This document shows positions 8,035-42,345 of a DNA stretch of 64,000 nt, piece after piece. Numbering within the stretch: position 1 is the stretch's first letter; each line of letters opens with the position of its first letter. The stretch is from Paralysiella testudinis (GTDB taxonomy: Bacteria > Pseudomonadota > Gammaproteobacteria > Burkholderiales > Neisseriaceae), in NCBI RefSeq assembly GCF_016894345.1, contig NZ_CP069798.1:2129385-2193384 (forward strand), read 5' to 3'. Made by a program: the position numbers and the translations under genes. Below the pieces are notes generated by a model. That model was not told the origin of the DNA and searched no databases. It saw nothing but the letters and a program-made list of their open reading frames with translations.

Positions 8035-8157
8035 CGTCAATACCACCTTTACTCAAATAAGCCAGAATATAAAGTAAAACTACCACAAAACCGCATGAGA
8101 ATGCGGCCGGATTCACAGCCATTTTGTTAAAAAATAGCCTGATACCACAAATTCAAT

Positions 8158-8171
8158 TTGATTCAAATCAA
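8158..8171. promoter_or_regulatory. Perfect FNR-type operator upstream of adh
   Basis: TTGATTCAAATCAA matches TTGAT-N4-ATCAA exactly and is fully palindromic. It lies about 180 bp before the dehydrogenase start in a 309-bp intergenic region. An A/T-rich TTTTAT stretch about 35 bp downstream could be a -10 region with the operator near -41.5, the usual place for FNR activation. The function is inferred. A divergent role for the lipoprotein gene is also possible. Confidence 0.7.
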
Positions 8172-8343
8172 ACCACCAGCCGCATTACGCTTTTTTTACC
8201 TTTTATTGCATGGCAACAAGCGGAACGACAAGGCTAAACTTTGTTAAAGATTAAAGCGCGTAATAAGCCATAAACCGCCCTATCAGCTGAAACAATCCGC
8301 TTTGATTTTTTACGACAAATACAACAAACAAAGGAGCCGCAAC

Positions 8344-9438
8344 ATGAGCATGATGAAAGCCGCTGTTTTTCTGGAAAAAGGCCGTATTGAGCTGGTTGAC
8401 AAGAAAATCCCCGATGTCGGCCCCAACGATGCGTTGGTAAAAATCACCACCACCACCATTTGCGGCACCGATGTGCATATTTTGAAGGGCGAATATCCGG
8501 TGGCGAAAAACCTCACCGTGGGGCATGAGCCGGTGGGCATTATTGAAAAACTGGGCAGCAATGTGAAAGGCTACCATGAAGGCCAGCGGGTGATTGCCGG
8601 TGCCATTTGCCCCAGCTTTACTTCCTATCCTTCGCAAGATGGGTTCCCCTCGCAAGACGGTGCCTATCTCCAAGAAGACGGCACCTGCTCCTGCCACGGC
8701 TACAAGGCCACTGCGGGCTGGCGCTTTGGTAATATGATCGACGGCACTCAGGCCGAATATGTGCTGGTGCCGGATGCGCAAGCCAATCTGGCGCCGATTC
8801 CGGATGGTTTGAGCGATGAAGAAGTGCTGATGTGTCCGGATATTATGTCCACCGGTTTTAAGGGCGCGGAAAACGCCGATATTAAAATCGGCGATATTGT
8901 GGTGGTGTTTGCGCAAGGCCCCATCGGCTTGTGCGCCACCGCCGGCGCGCGTTTGCGCGGTGCCAGCACAATTATTGCGGTAGACGGCAACGATGCCCGC
9001 TTGGCAATGGCCAAAAAACTGGGCGCCACGGTAACGCTGAATTTCAATAATGTGGATGTGGTGGACGAAGTGATGAAGCTCACCGGCGGGCGCGGTGCCG
9101 ATGCCAGCATTGAATGCTTGGGCTTGCAGGCCACGTTTGAGCAGGCTTTGCGCGTGCTCAAACCCGGCGGCACTTTGTCGAGCCTAGGTGTGTATTCGCA
9201 AGACCTCACCATTCCGATGCAGTATTTTGCGGCGGGCTTGGGCGACCACACCATCCGCACAGCCTTGTGCCCCGGCGGCAAAGAGCGTATGCGCCGCCTG
9301 ATGAATGTGGTGCAAAGCGGCGGCGTAGACTTGAAGCCGCTGGTTACCCACACTTATCAGCTGGATGATATTGTGGAAGCCTACGATTTGTTTGCCCATC
9401 AGCGTGACGGCGTATTGAAAGTGGCGATTAAGCCGTAA
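8344..9438 (+). CDS. Zinc-dependent alcohol dehydrogenase
   Basis: A medium-chain dehydrogenase/reductase of 364 residues. The start MSMMKAAVF has AAAGGAG at good spacing; the frame is open further upstream but without support. The catalytic zinc motif is CGTDVH, followed by GHEPVG (ligand region). The NAD-binding region has FAQGPIGLCATAGARLRG, and the acidic VDGN after the second strand suggests NAD rather than NADP. The sequence resembles the isopropanol/short-chain secondary alcohol dehydrogenase branch, which lacks the structural-zinc four-cysteine lobe. It would oxidise alcohols or, in low oxygen, reduce aldehydes/ketones to recycle NADH. The FNR-type box upstream supports anaerobic expression. 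It ends at a DUS hairpin. Confidence 0.88.
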   Translation: MSMMKAAVFLEKGRIELVDKKIPDVGPNDALVKITTTTICGTDVHILKGEYPVAKNLTVGHEPVGIIEKLGSNVKGYHEGQRVIAGAICPSFTSYPSQDGFPSQDGAYLQEDGTCSCHGYKATAGWRFGNMIDGTQAEYVLVPDAQANLAPIPDGLSDEEVLMCPDIMSTGFKGAENADIKIGDIVVVFAQGPIGLCATAGARLRGASTIIAVDGNDARLAMAKKLGATVTLNFNNVDVVDEVMKLTGGRGADASIECLGLQATFEQALRVLKPGGTLSSLGVYSQDLTIPMQYFAAGLGDHTIRTALCPGGKERMRRLMNVVQSGGVDLKPLVTHTYQLDDIVEAYDLFAHQRDGVLKVAIKP

Positions 9439-9459
9439 ATCATTTGATTGCAGGATAAA

Positions 9460-9488
9460 AGGCTGCCTGAAATGGTTTCAGGCAGCCT
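9460..9488. terminator. Inverted simDUS pair, bidirectional terminator
   Basis: Two uptake sequences in inverted orientation form a 12-bp stem with a short loop, followed by TTTATT. The hairpin sits between the convergent adh and dut genes and can serve both. Confidence 0.8.
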
Positions 9489-9522
9489 TTATTATGGCTT
9501 CAATTGTATATTTGCCGTATTT

Positions 9523-9975
9523 TTAATGTTGGCCGGTACTGCCAAATCCGCCTTCGCCACGTTGGCTGGCGGCAAATTCGTCCACCACTTCAAACACCGC
9601 TTGCGCCACCGGCACCACCACCATTTGCGCGATGCGCTCCAGCGGGGCGATGGTGAAGGCTTGGTGGCTGCGGTTCCACAGCGACACTTTCAATTCGCCC
9701 TGATAATCCGAGTCAATCAGCCCCACCAAATTGCCCAGCACAATGCCGTGTTTATGCCCCAAGCCCGAGCGCGGCAGCAGCACGGCGGCATAGGCGGGAT
9801 TGGCCAAGTGGATGGCGATGCCGGTGGGCACCAGATACACCTCGCCCGGTTGCAAAACGACCGGCGCGTCCAAGCAGGCACGCAAGTCCAGCCCGGCGGC
9901 ACCGGCGGTGGCGTATTGCGGCAGTTGGTCGGCCATTTGGGGATTAAGGATTTTTAATTCTACGGTGGGGTTCAT
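9523..9975 (-). CDS. dut: dUTP diphosphatase (dUTPase)
   Basis: A 150-residue homotrimeric dUTPase that hydrolyses dUTP to dUMP and pyrophosphate, keeping uracil out of DNA and feeding dTMP synthesis. The conserved motifs are visible in order: motif 1 AGLDLRA, motif 2 PRSGLG, motif 3 [11 protein letters not shown] with its aspartate, motif 4 ERIAQMV and the C-terminal glycine-rich motif 5 [10 protein letters not shown]. Length and motif spacing are normal. It is monocistronic here and converges on adh. Confidence 0.97.
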
Positions 9976-10043
9976 AAAGGTTTTCCAAATTAAATGGTTG
10001 CTTATTGCTGCTTAATTATTGAAGATACACATTCAATGTTTTA

Positions 10044-10115
10044 AGGCTGTCTGAAAGGCAAAACCGTTATTGCCGAGGTTGATTCGGCAATCCATTTGTG
10101 TGTTTCAGGCAGCCT
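10044..10115. repeat. Imperfect inverted simDUS pair with long loop
   Basis: AGGCTGTCTGAA (one mismatch to simDUS) and TTCAGGCAGCCT are separated by about 48 bp. The loop contains a second small inverted repeat (GTTATTGCCGA / TCGGCAA). It lies upstream of dut in a 570-bp non-coding region. Confidence 0.7.
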
Positions 10116-10165
10116 AAACAAAATAATGACGCTTGATACGGGTGCGCAACTTCAGCTGCTTCATT

Positions 10166-10289
10166 TATACCAAATCTAAAAATAGCCTAACTCAGTTGCG
10201 TGCTACCTGTACAGCCTACGGCCAAGCCCAAAGAGCACGACTTACCGAGGTGCTGAAACGCCCAGTAAATCAGCTCCGTTTTGTGATCT
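10166..10289. repeat. Correia-like core with atypical ends
   Basis: Between about 10193 and 10280 the sequence aligns with the reverse complement of the interior of the 156-bp Correia element at 33245-33400: the stretches CTACCTGTACAGCCTACGG, AAAGAGCACGA and GTGCTGAA match with scattered differences. The left end (TATACCAAATCTAAAAATA) is not the usual Correia terminus. No gene is visible. Confidence 0.55.
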
Positions 10290-10467
10290 TATACCAATTT
10301 TAAAAATAACCTTACAAAATAAAAGCAGTTCGACAGCAGCATCTGCGTAGGTCGGATTCTTGAATCCGACATTTGGCCATCGGCCAAAGTAATGTGAGTA
10401 CTTTGCTCTGCGAACCAGTGTCGGATTCAAGAATCCGACCTACGGGCTTATTTTTAGCATTGGTTTA
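10290..10467. repeat. Palindromic repeat element with nested inverted repeat
   Basis: The outer arms are inverted copies with mismatches (ATACCAATTTTAAAAATAA and the reverse complement of TTATTTTTAGCATTGGTTT). Inside, 10346-10372 and 10419-10444 form a second, nearly perfect inverted repeat of 26 bp, each arm itself containing the palindrome CGGATTCTTGAATCCG. The structure looks like a small mobile repeat inserted in another. It has no coding content. Confidence 0.65.
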
Positions 10468-10476
10468 ATCTTCAAA

Positions 10477-10506
10477 AGGCTGCCTGAAAACCTTTTCAGG
10501 CAGCCT
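10477..10506. terminator. Inverted simDUS pair
   Basis: An AGGCTGCCTGAA/TTCAGGCAGCCT hairpin followed by TTGTTTT. It lies about 80 bp beyond the stop of the Hint-domain gene (minus strand) and probably ends its transcript. Confidence 0.7.
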
Positions 10507-10586
10507 TGTTTTATCTGCACAGAATGTGCCTAGGCGCAATGGATTTAGATACTCACTGCCCTCCATCTTTGGTGCGCGCCTCGATT

Positions 10587-11615
10587 TCATCCAAGGGCTC
10601 CCTCCCGTTGGGTTTTATCGCAATTGGTGTTGTACACCAAAATACCGGATCGGGTCACGCAATAGGTATGGTAGTCCTCCACCTCTATATTGTAGACATC
10701 GGTTAAATATGGCTGATAAGTGCGTTGCCCCTGCTCATCCACAGCCAGCAGCATTTCATCGTTGCGTACATGGAGCGCTACTGCCCGCTGAAATGTGTAA
10801 TCATTGTCTTTAGATAGGGTTAAATCATAAATATGACCAATTGCTGATTGTTCCCAATCATATCTATCACTATAGCCCTGAACCCAAACAGCATTATTAT
10901 CAGGTACAGCATAGAGTGGTCTGACCATTTCCACTACACGATAATTATTCTGCCAATCCAATACCACATCACCGCGTTCAAGCTGATCCACCCGCTTCCA
11001 TAACGGCTGCTCGTATAGGGTATAGGTATAGGGGGTGGCGACAAACTCACTCAGTGCCTCGAATTTCTCATTCCAGTCATCATCGCGCTCGACATCTACC
11101 TCCAACTCAACCCTACCCAGCTCACCAAAGCGGCTTTGGATAAACAGATTATTGACCGCACCATACACACACACCGGGTGGTTAGGGGTGGCAGCAAACC
11201 GCGCTCCCCCAGATTCTCTTTTAAGCTTTGGATTGCCAATCTCAACAAGCCATACTGCTTTATTTTCAAACTTAAAGGTATTCACCACCCGTTTCTGCAC
11301 CGCCTCACCGATGCCGTTTTCCGGGCGCGCCATCACCAGATCGCCCACTTTCAGTTCGTCAATCGGCGTCCAGCCCTCTTGTGTTTCCACCAGTGTGCCT
11401 TTGATAAAGCAGCCGATGGTCGACGACTGCATGTTTTCTGTGGCTTTGGTCTGGATAAAGCGGTGCATGGCATCGCCGGACAAGCCTTCTTGAATCGCAT
11501 CGGCTTTAAAATCCGCCAGCGAGCAAGCCGGGAAGAATAAATTGAAATTGCTCTGCGCATTGCCATCGGCAACGGCAACGGCAACGGCAACGGCACGGAT
11601 GGTGGCGCTAATCAT
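10587..11615 (-). CDS. Free-standing Hint-domain (intein-like) protein
   Basis: Residues about 69-331 form a Hint autoprocessing domain. It begins at Cys69 (GCFIKGTLVETQEGW), has the block B histidine in TPNHPV (His146), and ends in YNIEVEDYHTYCV...GILVYN, where Asn329 is in the C-terminal motif. Such domains usually sit before toxin domains in polymorphic toxins and release or modify them. Here only 11 residues follow the last motif, so no toxin is attached. The N terminus (68 residues) has no signal peptide and contains an AV repeat from a DNA hexamer. The start has AAAGGAAA about 7 bases upstream. It could be a truncated toxin, a delivery cassette or a remnant. Confidence 0.8.
   Translation of the reverse strand: MISATIRAVAVAVAVADGNAQSNFNLFFPACSLADFKADAIQEGLSGDAMHRFIQTKATENMQSSTIGCFIKGTLVETQEGWTPIDELKVGDLVMARPENGIGEAVQKRVVNTFKFENKAVWLVEIGNPKLKRESGGARFAATPNHPVCVYGAVNNLFIQSRFGELGRVELEVDVERDDDWNEKFEALSEFVATPYTYTLYEQPLWKRVDQLERGDVVLDWQNNYRVVEMVRPLYAVPDNNAVWVQGYSDRYDWEQSAIGHIYDLTLSKDNDYTFQRAVALHVRNDEMLLAVDEQGQRTYQPYLTDVYNIEVEDYHTYCVTRSGILVYNTNCDKTQREGALG
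11568..11594. repeat. Hexanucleotide tandem repeat (GGCAAC, four copies plus part)
   Basis: Four perfect GGCAAC units and a partial fifth lie in the 5' coding part of the Hint gene and encode AVAVAVAV. Slippage by whole units would keep the frame, so it would change length rather than switch the gene off. Confidence 0.85.
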
Positions 11616-18822: not shown

Positions 18823-19728
18823 ATGAGCACCCCGCAAACCGCCATCCTGCCCGAACACATGACTGCCTGCATTGTGATTGAAGCCAATGCCGCCAGTACC
18901 GATATGGCCAAAATCAAGGCCGCCTGCCGGCAAAGCCTGCAGCGCTTGCAACAGCACCGTGCCCTGCAGCCCGAAGCCAAGCTGGGCATGTGCATCGGCT
19001 TTGGCGATGCCGTGTGGCAAAGCTTGCGCCAGCCCGGCGAAGGGTTGGATTTGAAACCGTTTGCCCCGCTGGGTAAGGGCTTGGCACCGGCCACCCAACA
19101 CGATATCGCCATCCATATCCAGTCGCTCAGTCACGGTGCCAATATGTTGCTGGCGCTGGCCGTACTGGCCGCTTTTGGCGACAGCATCCGCCCCGCCGAC
19201 GAAACCCACGGCTTTCGCCTGCGCGAAGAACGCGGCTACGACGGCTTTGTTGACGGCACCGAAAACCCCGAAGGCGCCGACCGCTGCCCCATCGGCATTA
19301 TTGCCGAGCCAAACTTGGATGCGGGCGGCAGCTATTTGCTGCTGCAAAAATACCGCCACGATTTGCACAAATGGGCCAAAATCACCGAAGAGCAGCAAGC
19401 CAATGTGATTGGCCGCAGCAAGCACAGCAACGAAGAATTACCCAGCGAACAGCGCCTGCCCACATCGCACTTGGGGCGGGTGGATTTAAAAGAAAACGGC
19501 CAAGGGCTGAAAATCATCCGCCAAAGCCTGCCCTATGGCAACGCCAGCGGTGAGCAAGGGCTGATGTTTATTGCCTATTGCGCCCGCTTGCGCAATATCG
19601 AACAGCAATTGCTGAGCATGTTTGGCGAGCTGGACGGCAAAACCGATTTGCTGCTGAGCAAAATCAGCACCGCCATCAGCGGCAGCTATTATTTTGTGCC
19701 CAGCCAGGAAAGATTGGCGGATTTGTAA
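18823..19728 (+). CDS. Dyp-type heme peroxidase
   Basis: A 301-residue dye-decolorising peroxidase. The diagnostic GxxDG motif appears as GFVDGTENPEG (Asp catalytic), and the distal region has an Arg in SHLGRVDLKENG. The proximal heme-ligand histidine is most likely in the LPTSHLG segment. There is no Tat or Sec signal, so it is cytosolic (YfeX-like) rather than EfeB-like. It would use H2O2 to oxidise organic substrates. AGAGGA precedes the ATG. Confidence 0.92.
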   Translation: MSTPQTAILPEHMTACIVIEANAASTDMAKIKAACRQSLQRLQQHRALQPEAKLGMCIGFGDAVWQSLRQPGEGLDLKPFAPLGKGLAPATQHDIAIHIQSLSHGANMLLALAVLAAFGDSIRPADETHGFRLREERGYDGFVDGTENPEGADRCPIGIIAEPNLDAGGSYLLLQKYRHDLHKWAKITEEQQANVIGRSKHSNEELPSEQRLPTSHLGRVDLKENGQGLKIIRQSLPYGNASGEQGLMFIAYCARLRNIEQQLLSMFGELDGKTDLLLSKISTAISGSYYFVPSQERLADL

Positions 19729-23505: not shown

Positions 23506-23666
23506 GACCGCCTCCCGATTGATTGACCTTGTGGGCACACGCGATAAAAAACACCATTGCGGCCAGCGCAATGGTGTGGTGTGACTGGATTAGGGCGGAT
23601 TATAACGGCTTTATGCTGCCGATGGCAGTGGCTTTTTTGCCGCCATAATAAACCGCATAACCAAGC

Positions 23667-24413
23667 TTAATCCAACAAGGTTTCCATTAAGTCGATCATA
23701 AATTCGGCGTCTTCTTGGGTAAGGGTTTCAAAGCCTTCAGGCAGCCCCAAGTCTTCCAACACCATTTGGCCGGCCGCATCGTTGCCCATTTCCAGAAAAG
23801 CACTGCGCAATTTTTCTTGCTGGGCACTGTGGCGCGGATGCAGCAGCAATACATGCGAAATATCGGTAATTTTGCTTTCCATCAAGGTGCGCAACTGGTT
23901 AAGCGTAAGGCTGGACAAGCCTTGATAGGCACTGGCGAGGAAAAAGCCCACCTCGGCATCGCCGTCAATCAAATGCCGTGCCACCGCTTGGAAGGCATCG
24001 GCCTCAACCCACTGCAAGTTGCCTTCATTTAAATCCACCGCTTCCAATAAGCGCAAACCAATCAGCTTTACATCGCGATTTTCGGTGTGCAGCACACGCA
24101 TATCGGGCTTGATGTCTTCCAGCGTTTGTAAAGGCTGGCTGGCCGCCGTGGCAATCACCATTTCATCGGGCTTGTTCACCGGGCGCACCAAGGGCAGATA
24201 ACCCATATCGCGTACCAACTGCGCCGCATCAAACGGGTTGGCATAAATGATGTCCACCGTGCCCGAAGCAATCAGCGCCTGCTCCTCTTGCGGGCTGGCC
24301 GGGGTTTGCAGGTGGATGGCGGCATTGGTTTTGCGCTGCAAGCGGGTATTGAGCAAATGCCAGCCGGCAAAATATTGCGGCGGAAAATCGGGGGCAATCA
24401 GAAACTGAATCAT
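23667..24413 (-). CDS. PhnD-like binding-protein fold without signal peptide
   Basis: A 248-residue protein of the phosphate/phosphonate (PhnD/SsuA) type-2 periplasmic-binding-protein fold. It starts directly with the mature fold, MIQFLIAPDFPPQYF, and has GTVDIIYANPFDAAQLV (ligand-hinge region) and DAEVGFFLASAYQG. There is no Sec signal, lipobox or membrane anchor and no ABC transporter gene beside it, so it probably acts in the cytoplasm. Its ATG overlaps the stop of the PAS gene (TGATG), with AGGAGG just upstream, so the two are translationally coupled. A sensor or ligand-binding role paired with the PAS protein is inferred. Confidence 0.78.
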   Translation of the reverse strand: MIQFLIAPDFPPQYFAGWHLLNTRLQRKTNAAIHLQTPASPQEEQALIASGTVDIIYANPFDAAQLVRDMGYLPLVRPVNKPDEMVIATAASQPLQTLEDIKPDMRVLHTENRDVKLIGLRLLEAVDLNEGNLQWVEADAFQAVARHLIDGDAEVGFFLASAYQGLSSLTLNQLRTLMESKITDISHVLLLHPRHSAQQEKLRSAFLEMGNDAAGQMVLEDLGLPEGFETLTQEDAEFMIDLMETLLD

Positions 24414-24907
24414 CAGGAGGCACTCCTTTCGGCCGCCAGCATTTGCTCATACAAAGCACCCAATTCCGCCACCTTGCTGCGCGAAGGCTTGCGCCGCACC
24501 GAAGTGTAGCCTTGGATTTCGCCGTCGCGGATATTCGGCACCACCGTGGCATACACCCAGTAAAAACCGCCGTTTTTGCGCAGGTTTTTCACATAGCCGT
24601 GCCATTTGGTGCCGGTGCTCACCGTATCCCACAAGTCTTTAAACGCGGCTTTGGGCATATCGGGATGGCGCAAAATGCTGTGCAAAGAGCCCATCAGCTC
24701 CTCGCGCTCCCAGCCGCTCATAATCACAAAGGCATCGTTGGCATGGGTAATAATGCCTTTGGTATCGGTGCTGGATACAATCAGGCGGCCATCGGGAAAC
24801 TGCTTTTCTTCATCGGTGGTGTACACCGTTTGGGTGAAGCCTTCATAAAATTGCAATTCATGCTGCCGGTGCGGCAGCTCGGGTACAGGCATTTGGGGTA
24901 AACGCAT
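24413..24907 (-). CDS. PAS-domain protein, Aer-type sensor module
   Basis: A 164-residue protein consisting of one PAS domain: IVSSTDTKGIITHANDAFVIMSG, then EELMGSLHSILRHPDMPKAAF and NGGFYWVYATVVPNIRDG. This is the FAD- or ligand-binding type seen at the N terminus of Aer aerotaxis receptors. No membrane segment, HAMP or methyl-accepting domain follows, so the module is free-standing. The start at 24907 has AAAGGA 9 bases upstream. It is the first gene of a pair with the PhnD-like gene. Possibly a redox or oxygen sensor; the partner is unknown. Confidence 0.83.
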   Translation of the reverse strand: MRLPQMPVPELPHRQHELQFYEGFTQTVYTTDEEKQFPDGRLIVSSTDTKGIITHANDAFVIMSGWEREELMGSLHSILRHPDMPKAAFKDLWDTVSTGTKWHGYVKNLRKNGGFYWVYATVVPNIRDGEIQGYTSVRRKPSRSKVAELGALYEQMLAAERSAS

Positions 24908-25132
24908 GAGCATCCATCCTTTAAACAAGCAAATAGCGCGGCGAAACCGGGCGCAAGAAGCAATAATACAGCCCAATGTGGATAATCGGGCTATGATTCC
25001 ACAAAAAGACGTTGAACCTCAAGCCTAAAGCCGATTAAAAACGCATTAAAATCGGCTTCTTTGATTTATATTAAATTTGGCGGCGGGCAAACTCATCACC
25101 GGATTGATACACACAAGCGCCCGCAAGCCGCT

Positions 25133-26164: not shown

Positions 26165-26273
26165 TATCGTGGAATAAATAATGAAGTGCTACAGCGTTAG
26201 CTCGCCTGGTCGTACTACCTGTACTGCCTGCGGCTCGCTGCCTTGTATCACTTCATTCTTTATTCCACTGTAT
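26165..26273. repeat. Correia-like element, 109 bp, between rluB and scpB
   Basis: It starts TATCGTGGAATAAATAATG and ends TATTCCACTGTA, with the core CGTACTACCTGTACTGCCTGCGGC shared with the element at 19759-19866. The right end supplies the last codons and stop of scpB (see that entry). Confidence 0.75.
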
Positions 26274-42239: not shown

Positions 42240-42345
42240 TATAGTGGATTAAATTTGAATCAAGACAAGACGGCGAGCCGCAGACAGTACAGATAGTACG
42301 GCAAGGCGAGCCAACGCGGTATTGGTTCAAATTTAATTCATTATA
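42240..42345. repeat. Short-form Correia element, 106 bp
   Basis: It has the same ends as the element at 33245-33400 and lacks the internal 50 bp (the TGGTGCTTCAGCACC part), giving the second canonical Correia size. The right terminus has changed (ATTCATTATA), creating a TATAAC-like -10. It ends 33 bp before the decarboxylase start. Confidence 0.92.

Follow-up and report, generated by a model that had tools for sequence, protein, structure and literature searches.

What kind of system is formed by a stand-alone PAS protein and a PhnD-like protein that are encoded by two overlapping genes? The genes lie in a stretch of 64,000 nucleotides from Paralysiella testudinis, which was analysed as a whole and is called the window here. 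A first-pass annotation described the pair as a two-piece soluble sensor, with an Aer-type PAS half responding to redox or oxygen and a PhnD-fold half responding to a small anion. The analysis described below confirms that the pair exists and is conserved, and indicates that it belongs to a signalling system which can be recognised but has been described only incompletely. It is best filed under the accessory sensors of Group 3 MglA/roadblock systems.

The gene pair and its predicted products

The PAS gene (24413..24907, - strand) encodes a protein of 164 amino acids from an ATG start, an alternative TTG start being possible at 24976. It was recognized from the list of open reading frames, a Pfam match to PAS_3 (E 2.5e-14), a match to the Aer PAS structure 8dik and an alignment of 34 sequences. 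The PhnD-fold gene (23667..24413, - strand) encodes 248 amino acids without a signal peptide and was recognized from its open reading frame, a Pfam match to Phosphonate-bd (PF12974, E 1.1e-34, residues 4-235) and an AlphaFold2 model. The junction reads ...CTCCTGATGATTCAG; within its TGATG, the TGA stop codon of the PAS gene and the ATG of the PhnD-like gene have one base in common. The coordinates and the overlap first annotated are confirmed, both genes being on the - strand.

The pair is flanked upstream by an RluB-like gene and downstream by nupC, followed by a DusC-like gene. A terminator-like hairpin with a T tail (23551..23577, - strand) lies between the pair and nupC; this is a pattern match only, of a type found at 6 sites versus 2.9 expected. 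NupC is a nucleoside transporter and thus not an ABC transporter, and no ABC-transporter genes were recognised either in the window or in the gene families that recur around the pair at the 74 loci discussed below. The claim that the PhnD-like gene has no transporter of its own next to it is therefore sustained, with nupC located behind the hairpin. No histidine kinase gene is found among the window neighbours of the pair, nor is a roadblock or mglA gene located beside it, the roadblock matches of this genome being at three other places only. Elsewhere in the window a short repeat core, for which no chance occurrences are expected, has two copies (26209-26237 and 42274-42302, with 0 and 3 mismatches). 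The first copy lies in a stretch (about 26170-26270) that has outward inverted repeats and resembles a small mobile element or a repeat element of the Neisseriaceae. The window also harbors a gene for a Dyp-type peroxidase (18823-19728, TIGR01413, E 9.4e-69).

In agreement with the first-pass annotation, no output domain was found in the window PAS protein; a gene for the likely output partner lies at another place in the genome. Among solved structures the Aer PAS domain (8dik, E 3.2e-37) is nearest, and outside its own family the window protein is closest to PAS domains, namely those of the Aer aerotaxis receptor and of long Aer-like open frames. In Aer, FAD is contacted by H53, R57, W70, N85 and R115, of which R57 forms a salt bridge with the FAD phosphates (PMC9668731). 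Mapping by the 8dik alignment gives H76, R80, W93, N108 and R138 as the respective counterparts in the window PAS protein. Among the 34 aligned sequences, H76 is kept in at least 90% and the other four residues are invariant. The counterpart of Aer R57, R80, is part of an LRHPDMP motif (residues 79-85; 24653..24673, - strand), in which R80, H81, P82 and P85 are invariant in the same alignment. The Aer-type assignment thus holds. From these conserved positions, the PAS protein is predicted to bind FAD and to sense redox.

The resemblance to Aer also fits a bipartite energy-taxis sensor of the CetA/CetB kind, in which the PAS protein would signal to a chemoreceptor in trans. CetB from Campylobacter is likewise a PAS-only partner protein that acts in trans (PMC2628428). 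We regard this arrangement as highly improbable, since it is contradicted in the present organism: the genome has no match to the MCP signalling domain PF00015, which excludes an Aer- or CetA/CetB-type chemotaxis partner here. Unlike Aer and CetB, the PAS protein is associated with a PhnD-fold protein and a roadblock protein.

Upstream of the ATG of the PhnD-like gene the open frame extends by only 11 in-frame codons, without a start codon among them. A strongly hydrophobic N-terminus was not found in the 42 sequences of the PhnD-like family (top 15-residue Kyte-Doolittle mean 1.29), in line with the annotated lack of a signal peptide, and was likewise not seen in the PAS family. Judged from sequence, both products look cytosolic. 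The AlphaFold2 model of the PhnD-like protein (mean pLDDT 95.3) has ArrX, AioX and PtxB as its best fold matches, with a TM of about 0.8. A sequence search of the structure database with the single protein returned only a repeat-protein artefact, and the family profile matched PtxB weakly (E 3.8e-5) when compared with solved structures. In PtxB and PhnD the ligand oxygens are held by an STS-H motif (PMC5700983). In the window family, the loop of residues 110-114 reads T-D/E-N/D-x-D in place of STS, and position 141 is Tyr or Phe where PtxB has His. With the alignment being this weak across such a distance, loss of the oxyanion motif is likely rather than certain.

The most conserved stretch of the PhnD-like family is the C-terminal helix (residues 233-247, QEDAEFMIDLMETLL; 23673..23717, - strand), as indicated by the column entropy (0.83 versus 1.79 elsewhere) and the model. 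It is located almost wholly past the Pfam match, which ends at residue 235. Because the STS-H motif appears to be missing and this helix is the most conserved part, there is doubt about a function as small-anion sensor, and a role in docking is more likely, with the helix as the proposed docking element. Thus, the small-anion half of the first-pass annotation lost ground, although the PhnD-like fold itself is present. The cleft may accommodate another ligand; residues W18, Y57-A58-N59, E84, S180 and H187 are invariant or nearly so.

The bilobed fold (TM about 0.8) is shared with AioX, ArrX and ArxX and with PtxB and PhnD, and AioX-type proteins are sensors, not transporters (PMC5908839). Whereas those proteins are periplasmic, the window family is predicted to be cytosolic. 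Furthermore, it lacks the STS-H motif that belongs to PtxB and PhnD, and the histidine kinase that is the partner of AioX and ArrX has no counterpart beside the window pair. In comparison to a phosphonate or phosphite ABC binding protein, the PhnD fold is present but a signal peptide, adjacent permease and ATPase genes, and STS-H are not. The PF12974 match and the substrate-binding fold would also suit a decayed or moonlighting transporter part, i.e. a PhnD protein drifting after loss of its signal peptide. This is very unlikely in view of the residues that are invariant among phylum-wide relatives, the high conservation of the C-terminal helix, the reading frames that are intact throughout and the co-duplication with the PAS gene; in addition, the neighbourhoods that were read contain no ABC-transporter gene.

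Linkage to roadblock and MglA genes

The PAS and PhnD-like genes are present together in most of the Neisseriaceae genera sampled (61 relatives), and in several genera a roadblock gene lies beside or between them. When 84,980 species genomes were scanned with the single window PhnD-like protein, 74 named loci were obtained. The PAS gene is located immediately upstream of the PhnD-like gene in 73 of these, the sole exception being cut by a contig end. The gap between the two has a median of 0 bp and 37 of the 74 pairs overlap; the count of 4-bp overlaps does not control for shared ancestry. A few records carry unlikely organism names (L109, 'Streptomyces cinereus', has a Moraxella-like locus; another is L099, 'Rhodoferax'), which makes single-locus labels unreliable. 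The pair is thus conserved across genomes, and no signal peptide from another start, ABC-transporter linkage or lack of co-occurrence, the three results named as refuting by the first-pass annotation, was found. That annotation had also raised fusions to kinases or cyclases. Neither protein was found fused to these or to other domains of the system; the sole fusion met is an MglA-type GTPase behind a Ser/Thr kinase domain (Pkinase 8.5e-34) in a relative (L078 10937-12424, genome G056). The operon of this relative also holds two consecutive PhnD-like genes.

The same 74 loci contain genes for roadblock proteins (46), MglB-like proteins (42), a helical protein X (40), receiver proteins (33) and MglA (33). 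The typical gamma-proteobacterial order is X, receiver/wHTH, MglA, MglB-like, roadblock, PAS, PhnD-like, with a roadblock protein of 120 amino acids in this fuller operon, whereas in Moraxella and part of Psychrobacter roadblock-PAS-PhnD opens the block. Full operons are found in Methylococcales, Thiotrichaceae, Moraxella, Psychrobacter, Zoogloea and others. X199 and X234, the X proteins, can be aligned with each other as members of a single family, and their models are all-helical; the model of X (pLDDT 87) gave no significant fold match. The PADLOC phage-defence search gave no match for PAS, PhnD-like, MglA or roadblock proteins. The description as a two-piece soluble sensor therefore stands in part: the pair is a conserved and cytosolic-looking unit, but it is not free-standing, since a roadblock gene usually accompanies it and a whole MglA operon often does.

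The Group 3 MglA system as described by Wuichet and Sogaard-Andersen in 2014 is composed of a receiver/wHTH-like protein, MglA and one or two MglB proteins (PMC4316618). Their survey does not mention the PAS, PhnD-like and X genes, and in the open-access literature no paper was found that gives Group 3 MglA a PAS or PhnD-like partner. In many genomes the Group 3 genes share an operon with roadblock-PAS-PhnD; in the present genome the mgl operon is separate and the window pair lies away from it. A related case is found in the Group 2 conservons, where the stand-alone GAF protein CvnF8 binds and stimulates its kinase (PMC13343842). CvnF is similar in being a stand-alone cytosolic protein with a sensor fold that is encoded with an MglA/MglB operon and proposed as its input. 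It differs in its GAF domain and in its target, the histidine kinase CvnA, as Group 3 systems have no such kinase.

Co-occurrence with MglA also extends to whole genomes. Among 83 Neisseriaceae genomes, MglA is present in all 33 that are PhnD-positive versus 37 of the 50 that are PhnD-negative (Fisher p 7e-4, uncorrected for relatedness). In a class-wide draw of 321 genomes the corresponding numbers are 16 of 17 versus 41 of 304 (Fisher p about 2e-12, again uncorrected for relatedness). The 17th PhnD-positive genome (G252, locus L167) has receiver, MglB-like, roadblock, PAS and PhnD genes and no MglA match. The association is one-sided, most Neisseria carrying MglA without the pair. The PAS gene occurs without a PhnD-like gene in L065 and L079, and the PhnD-like gene without PAS in L075, L076, L169, L170 and L171, the genomes of which carry MglA elsewhere. 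In L065 (7214-10145, from a Stenoxybacter relative), the PAS gene lies beside genes for a histidine kinase and a response regulator.

MglA is not the whole story. Fourteen genomes were chosen in which MglA was absent at or near the locus or the locus was cut there, and nine of these lack a Group 3 MglA match anywhere at E 1e-8. All nine retain the pair, in most cases together with roadblock and MglB-like genes, which shows that pair and roadblock can outlive MglA. The functional unit may accordingly be roadblock-PAS-PhnD with MglA being optional, the roadblock protein serving as a dimeric scaffold with an output such as the receiver/wHTH protein, X or another NTPase. The gene set of G252 agrees with such a unit, as does a Tessaracoccus record that holds only the trio. 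Nevertheless, we consider it rather unlikely, because MglA shows strong co-occurrence at the genome level and frequently shares the operon; moreover, MglA losses could be recent, the genomes could be incomplete, or another GTPase may substitute.

Some of these loci deserve a separate description. Five Psychrobacter loci (L112, L119, L122, L124 and L157) and L167 of G252 contain roadblock-PAS-PhnD with an MglB-like gene and no MglA at the locus. The gene for X is present in the five MglA-less Psychrobacter loci, and for most of the six loci Group 3 MglA is found nowhere in the genome. The bare roadblock-PAS-PhnD trio of the Tessaracoccus record, which is named as an actinobacterium (L155 5133-6747), adjoins an osmoprotectant-type ABC transporter and a gene similar to that of GTPase Der. 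Horizontal transfer of this trio is possible.

The second copy and the mgl genes of the same genome

The genome (2.9 Mb, one contig) harbors a second pair, copy B, at C1:1058512-1059685, which has 64% (PAS) and 40% (PhnD-like) sequence identity to the window pair, copy A. Copy B directly follows two small roadblock/LC7 genes, both with a Pfam match to Robl_LC7, in the order roadblock-roadblock-PAS-PhnD. A kinase/regulator pair lies beside it, downstream and on the opposite strand (L005 9843-11874). The genome has three roadblock genes in all, and the third is located in an operon with genes for an MglB-like protein, an MglA-type GTPase and a receiver/wHTH protein (C1:505177 on; L087 genes 8100-11020). 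The GTPase is a Group 3-type MglA (G000:C1:506200-506724, E 2.0e-86). The receiver/wHTH assignment follows the published survey (PMC4316618), the protein itself giving no Pfam match.

In the gene trees, copies A and B fall in the same separate clades for PAS and for the PhnD-like protein (mirror r 0.80, a value that is no control for shared ancestry), from which it follows that the pair was duplicated as a unit. The position of copy A between the RluB-like and DusC-like genes is also found in the Snodgrassella loci L066, L068 and L082 and is thus old. Since the window pair itself adjoins no roadblock or mglA gene, the case for its membership of the system comes from homology and from the second copy rather than from the genes around it.

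Copy A stands alone in the window genome and also in Snodgrassella, Stenoxybacter and rumen Neisseriaceae. Such an isolated position would fit a self-contained two-protein sensor of redox and a small anion that works independently of roadblock proteins and GTPases, and oxyanion sensors with a PhnD fold, the fold matched here, do exist (AioX/ArrX, PMC5908839). However, the deep linkage to roadblock and MglA elsewhere, the missing STS-H oxyanion motif (as defined in PMC5700983) and the lack of an output domain in both proteins make this improbable.

A mutation in a roadblock gene of this type may already have been described. In Snodgrassella, a G78R replacement (GGA to AGA) in the 'orphan mglB-3' altered soft-agar/colony spreading and competition in the bee gut (PMC11112851). 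The gene was treated as an orphan, and its PAS and PhnD-like neighbours were not mentioned (PMC11112851). In Snodgrassella communis, the Gly78 codon of the roadblock gene beside copy B is GGA; the corresponding gene of S. alvi (G025) is ~1 Mb away from mglA. It is very probable that mglB-3 is the roadblock gene adjoining copy B, an assignment based on one residue, its codon and the separation from mglA, not on published coordinates. The case differs from that of the window in that mglB-3 adjoins copy B, whereas the window pair is copy A.

A proposed sensory input of the MglA switch

The pairing, the operon linkage, the co-occurrence with MglA, the conservation of FAD contacts, the fold, the oxyanion-motif loss as graded above and the duplication as a unit are directly supported. 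Considering these, we propose, with a probability of about 0.6, that the window pair arose by duplication, as a pair, of the sensory end of a Group 3 MglA/roadblock system, has become detached from it, and conveys redox input via a roadblock protein to MglA. The pair in general is probably an unrecognised sensory input of the MglA switch, given its linkage to roadblock (MglB-like) genes across beta- and gamma-proteobacteria.

For the mechanism, we infer a sequence of steps that starts with FAD binding by the PAS protein, which would report on the cell's redox or respiratory state. The PhnD-fold protein would form a complex with the PAS protein and act as a clamp or adaptor that docks by its conserved C-terminal helix. 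Together, the two proteins would change the state of the roadblock (MglB-like) protein, which in turn would alter the GTPase cycle of MglA. The output of MglA would be type IV pilus behaviour and/or transcription via the receiver/wHTH protein. In case of the window copy, the roadblock partner would have to act in trans, the candidates being the products of the two genes beside copy B and of the one in the mgl operon.

More tentatively, and with clearly less confidence than we place in the sensory role itself, it can be suggested that the cytosolic protein with a binding-protein fold, the flavin PAS protein and the roadblock protein form one complex, in which redox and possibly a ligand set the GAP or scaffold activity of the roadblock protein. 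Such a complex would couple respiration to pilus-based surface behaviour without chemotaxis receptors and would represent a new kind of input for bacterial Ras-like GTPases.

Group 3 MglA/roadblock switches occur in Neisseria, Moraxella, relatives of Xanthomonas and others, and the parts named for them in the published survey are limited to the GTPase, homologues of MglB and a protein of the receiver type (PMC4316618). Gene linkage now names two specific sensor candidates for Group 3 MglA, the PAS and the PhnD-like protein. It also suggests that the 'orphan mglB' that shifts bee-gut colonisation by Snodgrassella when mutated belongs to a sensor operon. If the proposed model is true, the redox state of respiration would be signalled to a bacterial Ras-like switch, and a substrate-binding-protein fold would have moved to the cytosol as a signalling part.
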